Assembly: GCF_900100335.1 (NCBI RefSeq)
Contig: NZ_FNFE01000009.1
Span: forward strand, 1 to 64,000
DNA length: 64,000 nt
Direction of reading: 5' to 3'
Source of the DNA: Natronorubrum texcoconense
GTDB lineage: Archaea > Halobacteriota > Halobacteria > Halobacteriales > Natrialbaceae
Shown: positions 34,967 to 48,409 of the stretch, piece after piece
Position numbering within the stretch: position 1 is the stretch's first letter
Layout: each line of letters begins with the position of its first letter
The notes under the pieces: generated by a model
Told to the model about the DNA's origin: nothing
The model's input: the letters and a program-made list of their open reading frames with translations, nothing else
Databases searched by the model: none
Program-made: the position numbers and the translations under genes

Positions 34967-35047
34967 TCCCCGCTCGAGCATCGCGACCGACGACCACGCG
35001 CCCCCACTCCGTTGCGCTTTTTATCGATCTCCTGCGTAGCGTGAGCC

Positions 35048-42412: not shown

Positions 42413-43207
42413 ATGAATCGACGGCAGTTTTTCACAGCGGGGGCGGTCGTAACCGCCGCGACCGTCGCTGGCTGTCTTGGTGGTGACGACGAGACCGATG
42501 ACACGGACAATGGACTCGACGACGCCGATCAGGGAGACGGCTACGGACCGGAGCCTGACGACGAACTCGACGAGCGATCGATCGATACCGACGACTACGA
42601 GACGATGCCCTACGAGGGTATCGAGGTACCGCTAGCCCCGCTCGAGGACGTCTACTACTGGTACGCGCGACAGGAAGCCCGGATAGTCGACACGCGAGAC
42701 GTCGGTTCGTTCGAGGACGCCCGAATCGTCGGTGCCGCGTTGAGTCCCGCACCCGACGGCGGCGACGACGATCCGGTCGCGGGCTGGGCCGAAGACGACC
42801 GAATCGTGACGTACTGCGTCTGTCCGCACGCGATGGCCGTCCAGCGGGCCGCGGGGTTGATCGACGACGGCTACGAGAACGTCTACGCGCTCGACGACGG
42901 CTTTCAGGAGTGGATCGAAGCCGGCTATCCGCTCGAAGGGAACGACGTCGACGACGCCGCCAGCGCGAGTCTCCCGGCGTACCACGTCGAAGGACGGTCC
43001 GATCCGGCCTACGCCGGCGAGTACGTTTCCGTCCGGACGGTCGATGACGACAAACAGGAGATGAGCCTCGTCGACGCCGACGGCTCCTATGAACTAACGC
43101 TGCACTTCACTGGACTGAGCGACGACTCGTTGCTCGAGGTCGAAGCTCCCGACTACACCCGTGAACTGACGCTCGCGGAACTGACGAGCGACGTCGTCAC
43201 GGCCTGA
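42413..43207 (+). CDS. Rhodanese-domain lipoprotein
   Basis: 264 residues. The signal MNRRQFFTAGAVVTAATVAG then Cys20 marks a Tat-type lipoprotein. An acidic linker leads to a rhodanese domain (about residues 75-165): ARIVDTRDVGSFEDARIVGA, active-site loop VTYCVCPHAMAVQRA with a candidate catalytic Cys, and VYALDDGFQEWIEAGYPLEG. A C-terminal beta-rich domain follows. It may transfer sulfur at the cell surface; the acceptor is unknown. Confidence 0.85.
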   Translation: MNRRQFFTAGAVVTAATVAGCLGGDDETDDTDNGLDDADQGDGYGPEPDDELDERSIDTDDYETMPYEGIEVPLAPLEDVYYWYARQEARIVDTRDVGSFEDARIVGAALSPAPDGGDDDPVAGWAEDDRIVTYCVCPHAMAVQRAAGLIDDGYENVYALDDGFQEWIEAGYPLEGNDVDDAASASLPAYHVEGRSDPAYAGEYVSVRTVDDDKQEMSLVDADGSYELTLHFTGLSDDSLLEVEAPDYTRELTLAELTSDVVTA

Positions 43208-43209
43208 TT

Positions 43210-44589
43210 CTACGTCTCGGAGCGCTCGTACGCGCCCTCGCGCTCGAGTTCGCCCCGTTTTCGCAACACGCTCGGCGTTCGGCAGATCCCCGGCGCGCCG
43301 GTCGCCTGCGGCACCGTACAGTTGTTACAGTTCTCACAGAGGACGCGCAGATCGCCGTCAACCGGCGTCTCGGCGTCGGTACCGTTCTCGAGCAGCCGCG
43401 CCCCCAACCGCGGCTCGGCGTAGAAGGGGCGGGCCATGCCGACCATGTCACAAGCCGCTCTCTCGCGAGTGCCGTCACTGGATACGCCACTCGAGCCGAG
43501 CAACCGATCCATCTCTCGTCGCTCGCGGATCCCGCCCTCCGCGAGCACGGGGATCGACACCCGCTCGCGAACTCGCCGGCAGAAGCCCTCGTTCCACGCG
43601 GGGTCGAAGTCGTACTGTAGCGACTGGACCCGGTTCGCCGCGGCGACGAGTCGTCTGCGCGTCGCGCCGCCGAACGCCGCGTCGTACGCCTCGCGCAACT
43701 GCTCGTTCCCCCAGGCTCGTTCGGGGTACTCCCCGCGAACGATGCTCATGTCCCAGACGACCGACGTCTGGACGGGGACGACCGCGTCGTAGCCGATTCG
43801 TTCGAGTCGCCGAGCGATCTCGATCCCGTCCTCGAGCGACAGTTTCCGCCGGACGATCGGCGAGGGCGGTGCGGGCGTCTCCGCCGGCACCTTGGTCATG
43901 AGCGGAATATCGCCCGCTCGCTCGCGGATCTCGTCGTGAACGAGCGCGAGGAATTCGAGTCTCGCCTCCGGAGAGCCGCCGAACTCGTCGTCCCGACGGT
44001 TGTAGAACGGCGAGAGAAACTGCTGGACGATGCCCATATTCGCCCCCGAGAGGTGGATGCCGTCGTAGCCGGCTTCCACCGCATATGCTGCAGACCGGCC
44101 GAAATCGGCCGCGAGTTCGTACACCTCCTCGGTCGAGAGCACGTGGGGATCGTAGGCGAGAAAGCCGAGTCGATCCAGCAGCCGCAACTGCCAGGGTGGT
44201 CTCGAGACCGCCAACTGCTCCAGTTCCGGATGCGCCTCGCGATACTCGGCGTGCCAGGTTTCCATGCTCCGTAGACCGCCGTGCTCGAGTTGCACGAAGA
44301 TCCGGCTGCCGTGCTCGTGGATCCGGTCGGTCAGCCGCGATAGTTCGGCGACGAACTCGGGGTCGTGGACGCGGGTCATCCCCGGCGCGGCACAACCGCC
44401 GTCGCCGCGAACGATGGTCGCCCCCTGACAGAGGAGGCCGACACCCGACTCCGCTGCGGGCTCGAGATCGTCGATCAGCGTGTCGACCGCGTCGGGGCCG
44501 TTGCCCGCACACTCGAGCACTGGCGCGCGATAGAGCCGATTGGGAACCTCGCAGCCGCCGATCTCGATGGGGTCCTCGAGGGTGGTCAT
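43210..44589 (-). CDS. Old Yellow Enzyme family NADH:flavin oxidoreductase
   Basis: 459 residues from ATG 44589. A TIM-barrel flavin oxidoreductase: EVPNRLYRAPVLECAGNG, FVQLEHGGLRS, YDGIHLSGANMGIVQQFLSP and FYNRRDDEFGGSPEARLEF are family hallmarks. The C-terminal CENCNNCTVP with a later C supplies Cys residues for the 4Fe-4S cluster of the 2,4-dienoyl-CoA reductase branch, but no second flavin/NADH domain follows, so the protein is shorter than that branch. Substrate unknown. It is convergent with the rhodanese lipoprotein (3 bp). Confidence 0.88.
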   Translation of the reverse strand: MTTLEDPIEIGGCEVPNRLYRAPVLECAGNGPDAVDTLIDDLEPAAESGVGLLCQGATIVRGDGGCAAPGMTRVHDPEFVAELSRLTDRIHEHGSRIFVQLEHGGLRSMETWHAEYREAHPELEQLAVSRPPWQLRLLDRLGFLAYDPHVLSTEEVYELAADFGRSAAYAVEAGYDGIHLSGANMGIVQQFLSPFYNRRDDEFGGSPEARLEFLALVHDEIRERAGDIPLMTKVPAETPAPPSPIVRRKLSLEDGIEIARRLERIGYDAVVPVQTSVVWDMSIVRGEYPERAWGNEQLREAYDAAFGGATRRRLVAAANRVQSLQYDFDPAWNEGFCRRVRERVSIPVLAEGGIRERREMDRLLGSSGVSSDGTRERAACDMVGMARPFYAEPRLGARLLENGTDAETPVDGDLRVLCENCNNCTVPQATGAPGICRTPSVLRKRGELEREGAYERSET

Positions 44590-44666
44590 ACCGACGCTAT
44601 CACGGGATCGTACAAGAGCGTGCCGTCCGTGCGCACGACGTCCCCGGCCGCGTCTACGACGAATCT

Positions 44667-44746
44667 CGCCGTGACGGTGACGGATGCCGTAGCGGTGGTA
44701 CGTCGCCGTGACGGTGACGGATTCCATAGCGGTGGTACGTCGCCGT
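44667..44746 (+). repeat. 37-bp tandem repeat
   Basis: Two copies with period 37 start at 44667 and 44704, differing at two positions, and a third copy begins at 44741 (CGCCGT only). It lies upstream of the Old Yellow Enzyme gene and of the small gene at 44873. The unit contains GTGACGGTGACGGAT. Confidence 0.8.
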
Positions 44747-44872
44747 TCGGATGGGACTGAGGGGGTGTGGTCGCCGAAATCAACGTGCTTCTGCCGGGAT
44801 CGTATCGATGCGGCCGACGTATCAAATATTGTAAGAAAACGTCTCGTTGTTGGCCGCAGACGTGTCGACCGT

Positions 44873-45277
44873 ATGACTCGTACACGCACACATCCGACGA
44901 TGATAGCCACCGCCTCGAGACTCCTTCCCTGGTTTCGCGTGGTGTTCGGAGCGATCGGGCTCCTCGTTCCGCGCGTGCTCGGTCGGTGGTACGGCCTCTC
45001 GGCGAACGGCGGCTCCCTCGACGTCGCGCTTCGCTACGCGTGCATTCGAGCGCTCGGGCTCGGGATCGGCCGACTGACGGCGAGCAGGGCGACCCGTCGC
45101 GAGTGGGATCGCATCGCCCTCCTGATCGACGTTCTCGATACGCTCATGCTCCTCGAGGCCGGTATCCGGGGACGGATTCCGAAACGAAGCGCGCTCGTGA
45201 TGCTGAGCGGAACGATTTCGGGTGCCGCGATCGGGTTCCTCGCACGAGACAGCGATCCCGTGCGAGCGGCCGACTGA
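44873..45277 (+). CDS. Small haloarchaeal protein, possibly membrane-associated
   Basis: 134 residues from ATG 44873; an ATG at 44900 is also possible. Mixed hydrophobic segments (LLPWFRVVFGAIGLLVPRVL, LMLLEAGIRG and SALVMLSGTISGAAIGFLAR) suggest two or three membrane or amphipathic helices. The protein is basic for a haloarchaeal protein. I do not recognise the family. An AT-rich ATCAAATATTGTAAG (about 44821) may be its promoter. It is convergent with the alcohol dehydrogenase. Confidence 0.6.
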   Translation: MTRTRTHPTMIATASRLLPWFRVVFGAIGLLVPRVLGRWYGLSANGGSLDVALRYACIRALGLGIGRLTASRATRREWDRIALLIDVLDTLMLLEAGIRGRIPKRSALVMLSGTISGAAIGFLARDSDPVRAAD

Positions 45278-45307: not shown

Positions 45308-46351
45308 TTATGGCGGCGTCAGGACCGCACGCCCCTCGATCTCGTTGTGCTCGAGGCGTTCCGCGACCGTGTTGATCTCCGCGAGGTCGTGGGTCTCGGT
45401 TCGCAACTCGACGTCGCCGCGGTCGACGAGCGAGACGAGTTCTTGCAACTCGGCGTACTTCCCGACCAGCGTGCCGCGGAACGCGAACTCGCCGTTGACC
45501 AACGCCTGACTGGGTTCGTGGACGTGGCCGCCGTAGCCGACGATGTGGTGGTCGCCGCCGGCGGCGACGATTTCGGGCGCCAAGGCAGTCGTCTCGTCTC
45601 TCCCGACGAAGTCGATCACCTGCTGGGCACCCTCGTCGTCGGTCAGATCCGCGATCACGCTCGGAACGTCTTCGTCGGCCGAGTTGACGGTGTGATTGGC
45701 GCCCAACTCCGTCGCTAACTCGAGGGCCTCGTTCTTGATGTCGGCGGCGACGATGGTCGCGGCGCTCGTCGCGTCGAGACACTGGAGGCCGATGTGGCCG
45801 AGCCCGCCGACGCCGATGACGACGCAGGTGTCGCCCGGGTTCAGTTCGCGGACGGCCTTCTTGACGGCGTGGTAGGCCGTGATCCCCGCGTCGGCGTGGG
45901 GGGCGATCTCGGTCGGATCGACGCCGTCGGGAAGCGGGATCACCGCTCGCTCGTTCGTCCGAAGGTACTCGGCGAAGCCGCCGTCGGTGGTGAGCCCGTT
46001 GAACGCGCTGTTCTCGCAGTACATGTCCTCGCCGAGCCGGCAGGGCCGACAGATGCCGCAGGTCTGGACGGGGTGACAGATCACCGGATCGCCCGCCTCG
46101 ACCAGCGTCACCTCGTCGCCGGTTTCGGCGACGATGCCGGCGTTCTCGTGGCCGAGCGTCATCGGGAGCTCCTGGGGGGCGTACTCGGTCCACATCCCCT
46201 CGACGATGTGGTTGTCCGTCTGGCACCACCCCGCGCCTTTGACCTCGACCAGAACGCCGTCGGATTGATTGATCTCGGGTCGATCGACGTCCTCTACCTC
46301 CAGCGCCTCGCTCATCTCGTCGGTGTACTCGTGGAGTCGAGCTGCTTGCAT
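45308..46351 (-). CDS. Zinc-dependent alcohol dehydrogenase
   Basis: 347 residues from ATG 46351. Medium-chain dehydrogenase: catalytic zinc residues in GAGWCQTDNHIVEG and TLGHENAGIV, the structural-zinc Cys set in QTCGICRPCRLGEDMYCENS, and the NAD fold VVIGVGGLGHIGLQCLDATS. It resembles the alcohol dehydrogenase of soluble diiron (propane) monooxygenase clusters in actinobacteria. It is divergent from the amidohydrolase/DUF59 pair, the other two accessory genes of those clusters. Likely substrates are short secondary alcohols; this is inference. Confidence 0.92.
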   Translation of the reverse strand: MQAARLHEYTDEMSEALEVEDVDRPEINQSDGVLVEVKGAGWCQTDNHIVEGMWTEYAPQELPMTLGHENAGIVAETGDEVTLVEAGDPVICHPVQTCGICRPCRLGEDMYCENSAFNGLTTDGGFAEYLRTNERAVIPLPDGVDPTEIAPHADAGITAYHAVKKAVRELNPGDTCVVIGVGGLGHIGLQCLDATSAATIVAADIKNEALELATELGANHTVNSADEDVPSVIADLTDDEGAQQVIDFVGRDETTALAPEIVAAGGDHHIVGYGGHVHEPSQALVNGEFAFRGTLVGKYAELQELVSLVDRGDVELRTETHDLAEINTVAERLEHNEIEGRAVLTPP

Positions 46352-46535
46352 GGTGCTATGATACCGTTCAACACGGCCAATGATAACGTTCTCCACCTAT
46401 CAGAAGTCGTGACCGTTTGTTCGTTGATACCCTGAGAGTGACGACCTAATTTTGACGGCGTACTGTGGTCCGTCTGGGTAACTCAGCTCTCTCTGAAAAA
46501 GAGTCATGTTCTATGTTAACGATAATCACTGTGCG
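46352..46535. promoter_or_regulatory. Divergent promoter region of adh and amidohydrolase
   Basis: 184 bp of mixed AT content between the two divergent genes, with AATGATAACG near 46379, TTCGTTGATACC near 46422 and CTAATTTTGACG near 46447. The candidate TATA elements cannot be assigned securely. Confidence 0.4.
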
Positions 46536-47600
46536 ATGTATCAGCACAACGGCGAGGAGATCTTCGTCATCGACGCTCACGTTCATCTGTGGGACGCCAC
46601 GGAGGAAAACATCCAGCACGACGGCGGCGAGGAGTTCATCCGGTGCTTCTACGACTACCACACGACGTTTACGCCCGAGGAGCGCCAGTGGGGGATGGAC
46701 GAGTACCGCTACTACGGCCCAGACCGGATGCTCGAGGACATGTTCGGCAACGCTGCCGTCGACATGGGCATTTTCCAGCCTACCTATCTCTCCGACTTCT
46801 ACGAGGAGGGGTTCAATACGACCGAGCAGAACGCCGAACTGGCGACGGAGTACCCGGAGCGGTTCGTCCTCAACGGCTCGTTCGATCCCCGCGACGCCGA
46901 TCCGGGGATCGAGTACCTCGAGGAACTCCACGAGAAATACGACATTCCGGGCGTTAAGCTGTACACGGCCGAGTGGCGCGGCGACTCGAAAGGGTGGCGC
47001 CTCGACGACGAGGAGGCGTTCCGATTCCTCGAGCGGTGCGAAGAGTTGGGGATCGAGAACATCCACACCCACAAGGGACCGACGATCCGACCGCTGAACC
47101 GCGACGCGTTCGACGTCAAGGACGTCGACGACGCGGCCTCCTCGTTCTCGGGACTGAACTTCATCGTCGAACACGTCGGCCTTCCTCGGCTCGACGACTT
47201 CTGCTGGATCGCGGGCCAAGAGCCGAACGTCTACGGGGGCCTGGCCGTCGCCGCCCCGTTCGCCCAGAACCGGCCGGGAAAATTCTCCGAGATCATGTCC
47301 GAACTGCTCTGGTGGCTCGGCGAGGACCGCGTCCTGTTCGGCTCGGACTACGCGCTGTGGAATCCCGACTGGCTCGTCGAGGAAGTCATGGAGGCCGAAC
47401 TCACGGAAGAGCACCGCACGGAGTACGGCGTCGAGTGGGATCTCGAGACGAAACGGAAGGTGATGGGCGAGAACGCCGCCAAACTCTACGACATCGATAT
47501 CGAGGCAAAGCGCCGGCAGTTCCAGGAGGACGAGATCAGCCAGCGGTTCGGCCTCGAAGACCACTACGCCGGCGGGGAGCCCGCGGCGGCCGACGACTGA
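46536..47600 (+). CDS. Amidohydrolase-2 protein of the diiron-monooxygenase accessory type
   Basis: 354 residues. ATG 46536 (MYQHNGEE) is preferred because relatives start with MY..(D/N)GE; an ATG ten codons earlier exists. Metal-dependent hydrolase: VIDAHVHLWDA supplies the HxH pair, VKLYTAEWRGDSKGWRL follows, then IHTHKGPTIRPLNRDAF, FIVEHVGLPRLDDF and LFGSDYALWNP with the catalytic Asp. These segments recall the amidohydrolase encoded with propane monooxygenases in mycobacteria and Gordonia, where its exact reaction is still unclear. The stop overlaps the start of the DUF59 gene by one base. Confidence 0.9.
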   Translation: MYQHNGEEIFVIDAHVHLWDATEENIQHDGGEEFIRCFYDYHTTFTPEERQWGMDEYRYYGPDRMLEDMFGNAAVDMGIFQPTYLSDFYEEGFNTTEQNAELATEYPERFVLNGSFDPRDADPGIEYLEELHEKYDIPGVKLYTAEWRGDSKGWRLDDEEAFRFLERCEELGIENIHTHKGPTIRPLNRDAFDVKDVDDAASSFSGLNFIVEHVGLPRLDDFCWIAGQEPNVYGGLAVAAPFAQNRPGKFSEIMSELLWWLGEDRVLFGSDYALWNPDWLVEEVMEAELTEEHRTEYGVEWDLETKRKVMGENAAKLYDIDIEAKRRQFQEDEISQRFGLEDHYAGGEPAAADD

Positions 47601-48409
47601 TGGGCCGAACGGAAGCCGACGCCGACGGACCCGAACCGACGCGAGCCGCCGTCCGCGACCGACTGGATCGGGTCACCGATCCCGAACTCGACCGTTCGAT
47701 CGTCGAACTCGAGTACGTGGACGGAATCGAAATCGACGGTCGACGAGTCGAGGTCGAGATCACGCTCCCGACGGCGTGGTGCTCGCCGGCGTTCGCCTGG
47801 ATGATGACCGTCGACGCCCGCGACGAGGTCGCGACGCTGGCTGCGGTCGAGGTGGTCCGGATCACGCTCCGTGAACACATGCACGAGGCGGAAATCAATC
47901 GCGGCGTCAACGAGCGACGCTCGTTCGCCGAGGCGTTTCCGGACGCCGACGGAGACGTCGAGGCGGTCCGCGCGGAACTCGACGAAAAAGCCCGCGTCGC
48001 CAGACAGTACGACGCGACTGAGGCGCTGCTCGAGGCCGGTCTCGACGGCGAGGCGATCACCGGGCTGCGACTGGCGGACCTCGAGCCCCTCGAGGCGGAC
48101 GGCACGCCCGACGACGGCGAGGCGACGGGTTCGTTCGCCGTCTACGTCGCCGACCGCTCGTTCGTCGTCCGGGTTCCGCGAGCGCCGATCGAGCGCTACC
48201 TCGAGAAGGCCCGCGAGACCGATCTCGTCTCCGAGGCGGACGACGTCCTGTTCCGGACGCCGGAGGGCGAGCCGATCGACCCCAACTCGTTCGACCTCGT
48301 CCACCGTCGCGGCCGGCTCGCGACGGTCAATATGTCGAGTCAGGGCGGAATCTGTGACGGGCTTCGGGAAGCGAGGGAGAAGCGACTCGAGGAGTCGGCG
48401 GACGACTGA
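47600..48409 (+). CDS. DUF59/PaaD-type metal-sulfur assembly protein with C-terminal extension
   Basis: 269 residues; the start overlaps the amidohydrolase stop (TGATG). Residues ~15-105 are a DUF59 (MIP18/PaaD) domain: VTDPELDRSIVELEYVDGIE, VEVEITLPTAWCSPAFAWMM with the conserved Cys, then LREHMHEAEINRGV. The remaining ~165 residues are an acidic extension with YVADRSFVVRVPRAPIERYL and LFRTPEGEPIDPNSFDLVHR, not present in short PaaD proteins. DUF59 proteins assist Fe-S or diiron assembly; which client is served here is open, because no monooxygenase is nearby. Confidence 0.88.
   Translation: MGRTEADADGPEPTRAAVRDRLDRVTDPELDRSIVELEYVDGIEIDGRRVEVEITLPTAWCSPAFAWMMTVDARDEVATLAAVEVVRITLREHMHEAEINRGVNERRSFAEAFPDADGDVEAVRAELDEKARVARQYDATEALLEAGLDGEAITGLRLADLEPLEADGTPDDGEATGSFAVYVADRSFVVRVPRAPIERYLEKARETDLVSEADDVLFRTPEGEPIDPNSFDLVHRRGRLATVNMSSQGGICDGLREAREKRLEESADD

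Follow-up and report, generated by a model that had tools for sequence, protein, structure and literature searches.

A haloarchaeal alcohol dehydrogenase, amidohydrolase and DUF59 protein that probably form a metabolic unit of their own rather than an orphaned monooxygenase accessory set

In Natronorubrum texcoconense, three neighbouring genes coding for an alcohol dehydrogenase (ADH), an amidohydrolase (AH) and a DUF59 protein with a C-terminal extension (DUF59x) probably constitute an autonomous metabolic unit, in which an amidohydrolase and its maturation partner are combined with an NAD-type alcohol dehydrogenase, and not the orphaned accessory set of a soluble diiron monooxygenase (SDIMO); we put the probability of this reading at roughly 0.55. 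The genes lie in a 64,000-nucleotide stretch of DNA, hereafter the window, with the following features:

45308..46351, minus strand: ADH, NAD(P)-dependent medium-chain zinc alcohol dehydrogenase of 347 aa, start ATG at 46351, domains PF08240 and PF00107
46352..46535, no strand: divergent intergenic region between ADH and AH; the divergence is common to most haloarchaeal loci
46492..46508, plus strand: promoter-like element TCTGAAAAAGAGTCATG, 5' of the AH start, a near-identical stretch being found in many Natrialbaceae loci
46536..47600, plus strand: AH, Amidohydro_2 (PF04909, E 1.5e-43) TIM-barrel enzyme of 354 aa
47600..48409, plus strand: DUF59x, DUF59 (FeS_assembly_P; PF01883, E 7.5e-15) protein with a C-terminal extension, 269 aa

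The stop codon of AH and the ATG of DUF59x, as read from the sequence, overlap by one base, and the spacing between ADH and AH in haloarchaeal loci with the divergent layout is typically about 100-270 bp. The ATG at 46536 appears better placed as the start of AH than the one at 46506, because a query beginning at 46506 gave an upstream stop in several relatives whereas one beginning at 46536 gave none, and because 46506 falls inside the conserved promoter-like stretch (TCTGAAAAAGAGTAATG and variants), whose distance to the AH start codon is constant (for example in loci L139, L141-L143, L150 and L151). ADH is adjoined by a gene for an FMN oxidoreductase of the old-yellow-enzyme type (window 43210-44910, minus strand), a possible family-level add-on to the trio, and an exported rhodanese-domain protein with a Tat-signal-like start is encoded at 42413-43207 (plus strand).

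The sequence-only reading had described a divergent set with no monooxygenase, reductase or GroEL-like gene, and this description holds, as none was found between window positions 35000 and 60000. A family-by-family search of the genome of the window (G000, 99.9% complete) likewise revealed neither a soluble diiron monooxygenase nor a coupling protein: PF02332 (hydroxylase alpha/beta) had no match in the window or in its genome and PF02406 (MmoB/DmpM coupling protein) had none in the genome. Three other haloarchaea (G034, G197 and G285) served as positive controls for both families; PF02332 gave no match across a 14-genome control, and its absence was therefore judged against these three. They are rare haloarchaea with SDIMO hydroxylase subunits and coupling protein (L031-L036), and all of them lack the trio AH. 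The only other diiron-type oxygenase found in the N. texcoconense genome was PaaA/PaaC, encoded on a contig other than that of the trio (C2:611194-613135), with a DUF59 match next to it at C2:613405, so that paaA/paaC has a DUF59 gene of its own.

The trio of N. texcoconense is no isolated remnant: orthologues of AH were found in 87 of the 292 haloarchaeal genomes sampled, spread over 35 of 77 genera, with a diiron monooxygenase detected in none of them, and close orthologues (matches with E below 1e-100) occurred in 55 of 125 Natrialbaceae. When synteny was compared in other haloarchaea, none of the 43 haloarchaeal loci had a monooxygenase in the available sequence. Across haloarchaeal families, conservation at the locus is limited to ADH, AH and DUF59x; genes for the FMN oxidoreductase, CGI-121 and a helicase accompany them in only about 16 of the 43 loci, no Rieske gene is among the conserved neighbours, and the genes outside the trio vary, so that no consistent pathway emerges from them. 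On plasmids of Halorarius and Halomicrococcus, a bacterio-opsin-activator-type regulator is encoded near the trio (L037:8545-9249 and L038:10146-10850).

Within the trio, AH and DUF59x were adjacent and on the same strand in 132 of 132 loci, with a median gap of 4 bp. ADH is the least bound member: it was present in 38 of the 43 haloarchaeal loci and absent within 10 kb in the other five, as in some bacterial loci, and its orientation varies between loci. The separability and changing orientation of ADH would fit three broad-use catabolic or detoxification genes gathered independently and having no joint function. This explanation nevertheless has to account for the same trio in haloarchaea and several bacterial phyla and for an AH–DUF59x linkage with no exception, and we consider it unlikely.

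As had been proposed from the sequence, the three genes are homologous to those flanking prm/mim monooxygenase genes, which we saw in Caballeronia, Aminobacter, Paracoccus, Bradyrhizobium, Gemmobacter and Ponticoccus. The same flanking genes have been stated for Rhodococcus, Gordonia and Mycobacterium, and in the published description of prm clusters the four genes downstream are likewise those for a hydrolase, a metal-sulfur cluster protein, an ADH and GroEL (PMC4428276). On plasmids and genome contigs of many Pseudomonadota and some Actinomycetota, AH–DUF59x belongs to complete prm-type clusters that include GroEL. Compared with these accessory genes of group V SDIMOs, AH is orthologous (47-67% identity among the bacterial and archaeal members), DUF59x is orthologous including its C-terminal extension, ADH is homologous, and the AH–DUF59x order is kept. 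In contrast, the haloarchaeal trio comes without monooxygenase, reductase, coupling protein, GroEL or Fis/sigma-54 regulator, its ADH is divergent, and its AH forms a separate group in the tree.

AH–DUF59x without a detected monooxygenase was also found in bacteria, namely in Thermomicrobium, Thermoflexus, Chloroflexus and Thermogemmatispora (Chloroflexota and Thermomicrobiota being among the phyla), as well as in Poribacteria, Bacillota, Acidiphilium and several Alphaproteobacteria; some contigs among these 27 bacterial loci are short, so that single absences weigh less than the pattern. The trios of Thermomicrobium, Thermoflexus, Chloroflexus, Poribacteria and Bacillota (L041, L049-L057, L072, L099 and L105) resemble the haloarchaeal one in that AH and DUF59x stand alone, mostly with ADH, and with no monooxygenase or GroEL in the available sequence, but they usually form one co-directional operon, sometimes with DUF59x first, and they have other regulators, such as IclR in L041. 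The stand-alone bacterial loci had no operon partner in common, their neighbours being Opp transporters, B12 methionine synthase, AOR, DJ-1 and GH3, and many of the ORFs at these loci are antisense ORFs in G+C-rich DNA. Of 63 monooxygenase loci, 62 had GroEL, versus 1 of 70 other loci (0 of 43 haloarchaeal and 1 of 27 bacterial, the single case being a 3-kb contig). GroEL thus tracks the monooxygenase and the trio does not, and the independent life of the trio in haloarchaea, Chloroflexota and other groups argues that its members are not monooxygenase chaperones.

The phylogeny of AH gave a mixed answer on the kinship with monooxygenase-associated genes. In a quick tree of 79 AHs and two outgroup rows, a single branch (SH-aLRT 94) separated all 29 haloarchaeal rows from the monooxygenase-linked rows, which goes partly against the proposed relationship; the haloarchaeal AHs are nevertheless inside the same orthologous family. 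The monooxygenase-linked rows need at least four state changes on the starred branches of this tree, whose outgroup branches are very long and whose deep branching order would allow either gain or loss of the monooxygenase.

A different possibility is that the three proteins help, as accessory factors or chaperones, to mature a diiron or Fe–S oxygenase whose genes lie elsewhere in the genome, as the sequence-only reading had also considered. DUF59 proteins such as PaaD do act on oxygenase systems, paaA and paaC are present in the genome, and DUF59x matches the haloarchaeal PaaD model NF041868, although weakly and far below the cut-off (33.9 bits against 180, E 2.7e-8), which places it outside PaaD. 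The DUF59 gene that paaA/paaC already has speaks against such a role, as does the distribution of the two systems among 125 Natrialbaceae, where PaaA/PaaC scored above cut-off in 34 of the 55 AH-carrying genomes (the other 21 being without it) and in 47 of 70 genomes without AH, with no association (Fisher p = 0.57). Furthermore, none of the AH-carrying haloarchaea sampled has an SDIMO, and GroEL, the known monooxygenase chaperone, is missing. A role as chaperones of some other diiron enzyme is thus not supported, as this genome has no diiron monooxygenase of that type and the trio occurs independently of PaaA/PaaC, and we regard such a role as very improbable.

The preferred reading of an autonomous unit takes AH as a metal-dependent enzyme with intact catalytic residues. 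His15, Lys141, His179, His213 and Asp271 were found in 132 of 132 relatives and His17 in 131, and the HxH, His, His and Asp residues of a metal site are all present (H15, H17, H179, H213 and D271). The AH model (pLDDT 89.6) is closest in fold to decarboxylases and hydratases of the amidohydrolase superfamily; the oxygenase SfbO (8sm6; E 2.2e-7, TM about 0.5) is among the matches with similar scores, and a sequence search of the PDB returned only chance pentatricopeptide matches. The SfbO match, the constant presence of an iron-handling partner and the PF04909 fold common to AH and the oxygenases AibH2, SfbO and PtmU3 would agree with AH itself being a dinuclear oxygenase of this type, matured by DUF59x and followed by ADH, which would also explain the link to alcohols. 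The ligands of AibH2 are D25, H27, H211, E265, D337 and H340 (PMC10401708); when positions were mapped through the HxH and strand-8 Asp motifs, and not by direct structural superposition, the first position was His and the D+3 position Ile or Leu in 132 of 132 AHs, and a dinuclear oxygenase assignment was rejected on these ligands. In addition, those oxygenases have their own Rieske ferredoxin partner where AH has a DUF59 protein, the conserved gene set of AH holds no Rieske gene compared with about 90% for AibH2-like proteins, and the fold matches to decarboxylases and hydratases are no worse, all of which leaves little room for this alternative. Because two of the six AibH2 ligands have given way to other residues throughout the 132 sequences and no Rieske gene is conserved, AH is read as a mononuclear-type enzyme on its predicted ligands.

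In DUF59x, PF01883 covers residues 15-89 only (55.4 bits, cut-off 23.5), and the long C-terminal extension noticed earlier is real, comprising about 160 residues. It is normal for the family, since almost all full-length relatives are about 230-300 aa long with an invariant Cys252, and it is present whether or not the locus has a monooxygenase; Cys61 and Cys252 were found in 129 of 129 relatives. The model has a pLDDT of 91.9, and its N-terminal part matches DUF59 and CIAO2B structures. As in PaaD, SufT and CIAO2, the N-terminal domain has DPE and TxxC motifs and a corresponding fold (matches to 2cu6 and CIAO2B); DUF59x differs from these proteins in the extra domain with Cys252 and in having an amidohydrolase as its obligate neighbour. 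The C-terminal domain (window 47960-48409) bears a weak likeness to the tyrosine recombinase core (XerD/XerA) but lacks the catalytic HxxR...Tyr end. The results are mutually consistent but weak and thus only a lead: Foldseek against XerD gave a probability of 0.96 with E 0.06, the profile match to XerD 1a0p had E 0.25, hhalign gave a probability of 54% to a recombinase set that held some wrongly framed rows, and 1 of 27 members matched PF00589 (E 0.09).

The best reading of DUF59x is that of a metal or Fe–S partner dedicated to AH, because the two genes are never apart and because relatives of AH recruit DUF59 or NifU proteins elsewhere; its DUF59 domain could have a structural role instead of delivering metal. 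In 20 of 20 additional haloarchaeal loci sampled, AH paralogues that are 24-32% identical adjoin a short DUF59 gene; these loci represent about three groups and not 20 independent events, and some are annotated plasmid loci again (e.g. L184 and L181). Such pairs were also found in Natrinema, Natronorubrum, Haloarcula, Rhodococcus oxybenzonivorans, Bradyrhizobium sp. 186, Nonomuraea and Sinorhizobium sp. RAC02, so that paralogue–DUF59 loci (L179, L180, L181, L182-L201, L202-L204 and L206) come from haloarchaea, Actinomycetota and Alphaproteobacteria. In three rhizobial plasmids, of Shinella, Pararhizobium and Ensifer, the gene beside the paralogue, in the place of DUF59, belongs to the NifU family (NifU and amidohydrolase at L205:3989-5292, L250:2989-4304 and L251:2989-4292), and more distant AH pairs beside UbiD/UbiX genes had no adjacent DUF59 or NifU gene. 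The short pairs (L180, L181, L202-L206, L250 and L251) resemble the trio in placing an Amidohydro_2 gene beside a small gene of the Fe–S-assembly type, but their partner has no C-terminal extension and they have no ADH in common. The DUF59-paired AHs share Lys141 in a K-x-Y motif and His179-Lys, and the DUF59-paired paralogues have lost the first His of HxH and the strand-8 Asp. They also lack Cys37 and Cys223, which are conserved in the AH family of the trio; a common Fe–S cluster on AH cysteines is therefore unlikely and was rejected. The literature searched held nothing relevant on an AH–DUF59 partnership beyond cluster maps, and no description of the recurrent linkage to DUF59 or NifU.

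ADH has the features of a zinc-dependent medium-chain alcohol dehydrogenase (PF08240, E 1.1e-26; PF00107, E 1.9e-22), and the alignment shows Cys43, His68 and the four cysteines of the structural zinc site. Its best PDB match is the Aeropyrum pernix alcohol dehydrogenase 1h2b (E 1.4e-98), followed by Rhodococcus ADH-A (2xaa/3jv7), which is annotated as a secondary alcohol dehydrogenase. The latter match is only suggestive of secondary alcohol dehydrogenase activity, and the enzyme type allows a secondary alcohol or ketone pathway.

Taken together, we propose that AH would act as a metal-dependent lyase or hydrolase with a classical HxH-His-His-Asp site and that DUF59x would be its dedicated partner, most likely maturing it, by loading iron or an Fe–S unit or in another way, and such a maturation role would explain why the two genes are always joined. 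ADH, as a zinc enzyme that may prefer NAD, would convert an alcohol to a ketone or aldehyde, or the reverse, in a step that precedes or follows that of AH. Gene content, linkage, distribution and residue conservation are direct observations here; the service of DUF59x to AH, the order of steps, cofactor use and the kind of substrate are inferred from them. In proteobacterial and actinobacterial propane and acetone oxidisers, the unit is linked to an SDIMO and GroEL, the monooxygenase presumably supplying its substrate, whereas in haloarchaea and other groups it would run on substrate from another source. The nature of ADH and the link with propane and acetone oxidisers suggest small alcohols or ketones as the substrate of the trio. 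In the literature found, no role had been assigned to the genes beside propane and acetone monooxygenases, GroEL excepted. More tentatively, and with a rather low likelihood, amidohydrolase-fold proteins with DUF59 or NifU partners might make up a large group of enzymes, so far unrecognised, that depend on iron and have their own protein for loading iron or Fe–S, possibly redox-active or O2-using, in which case propane-monooxygenase clusters would carry one as a real catalytic step and not as an accessory. For the haloarchaea, the trio offers a function that can be studied without a monooxygenase, and for the wider family the recurrent linkage of amidohydrolase-fold proteins to DUF59 or NifU predicts a dependence on metal maturation.
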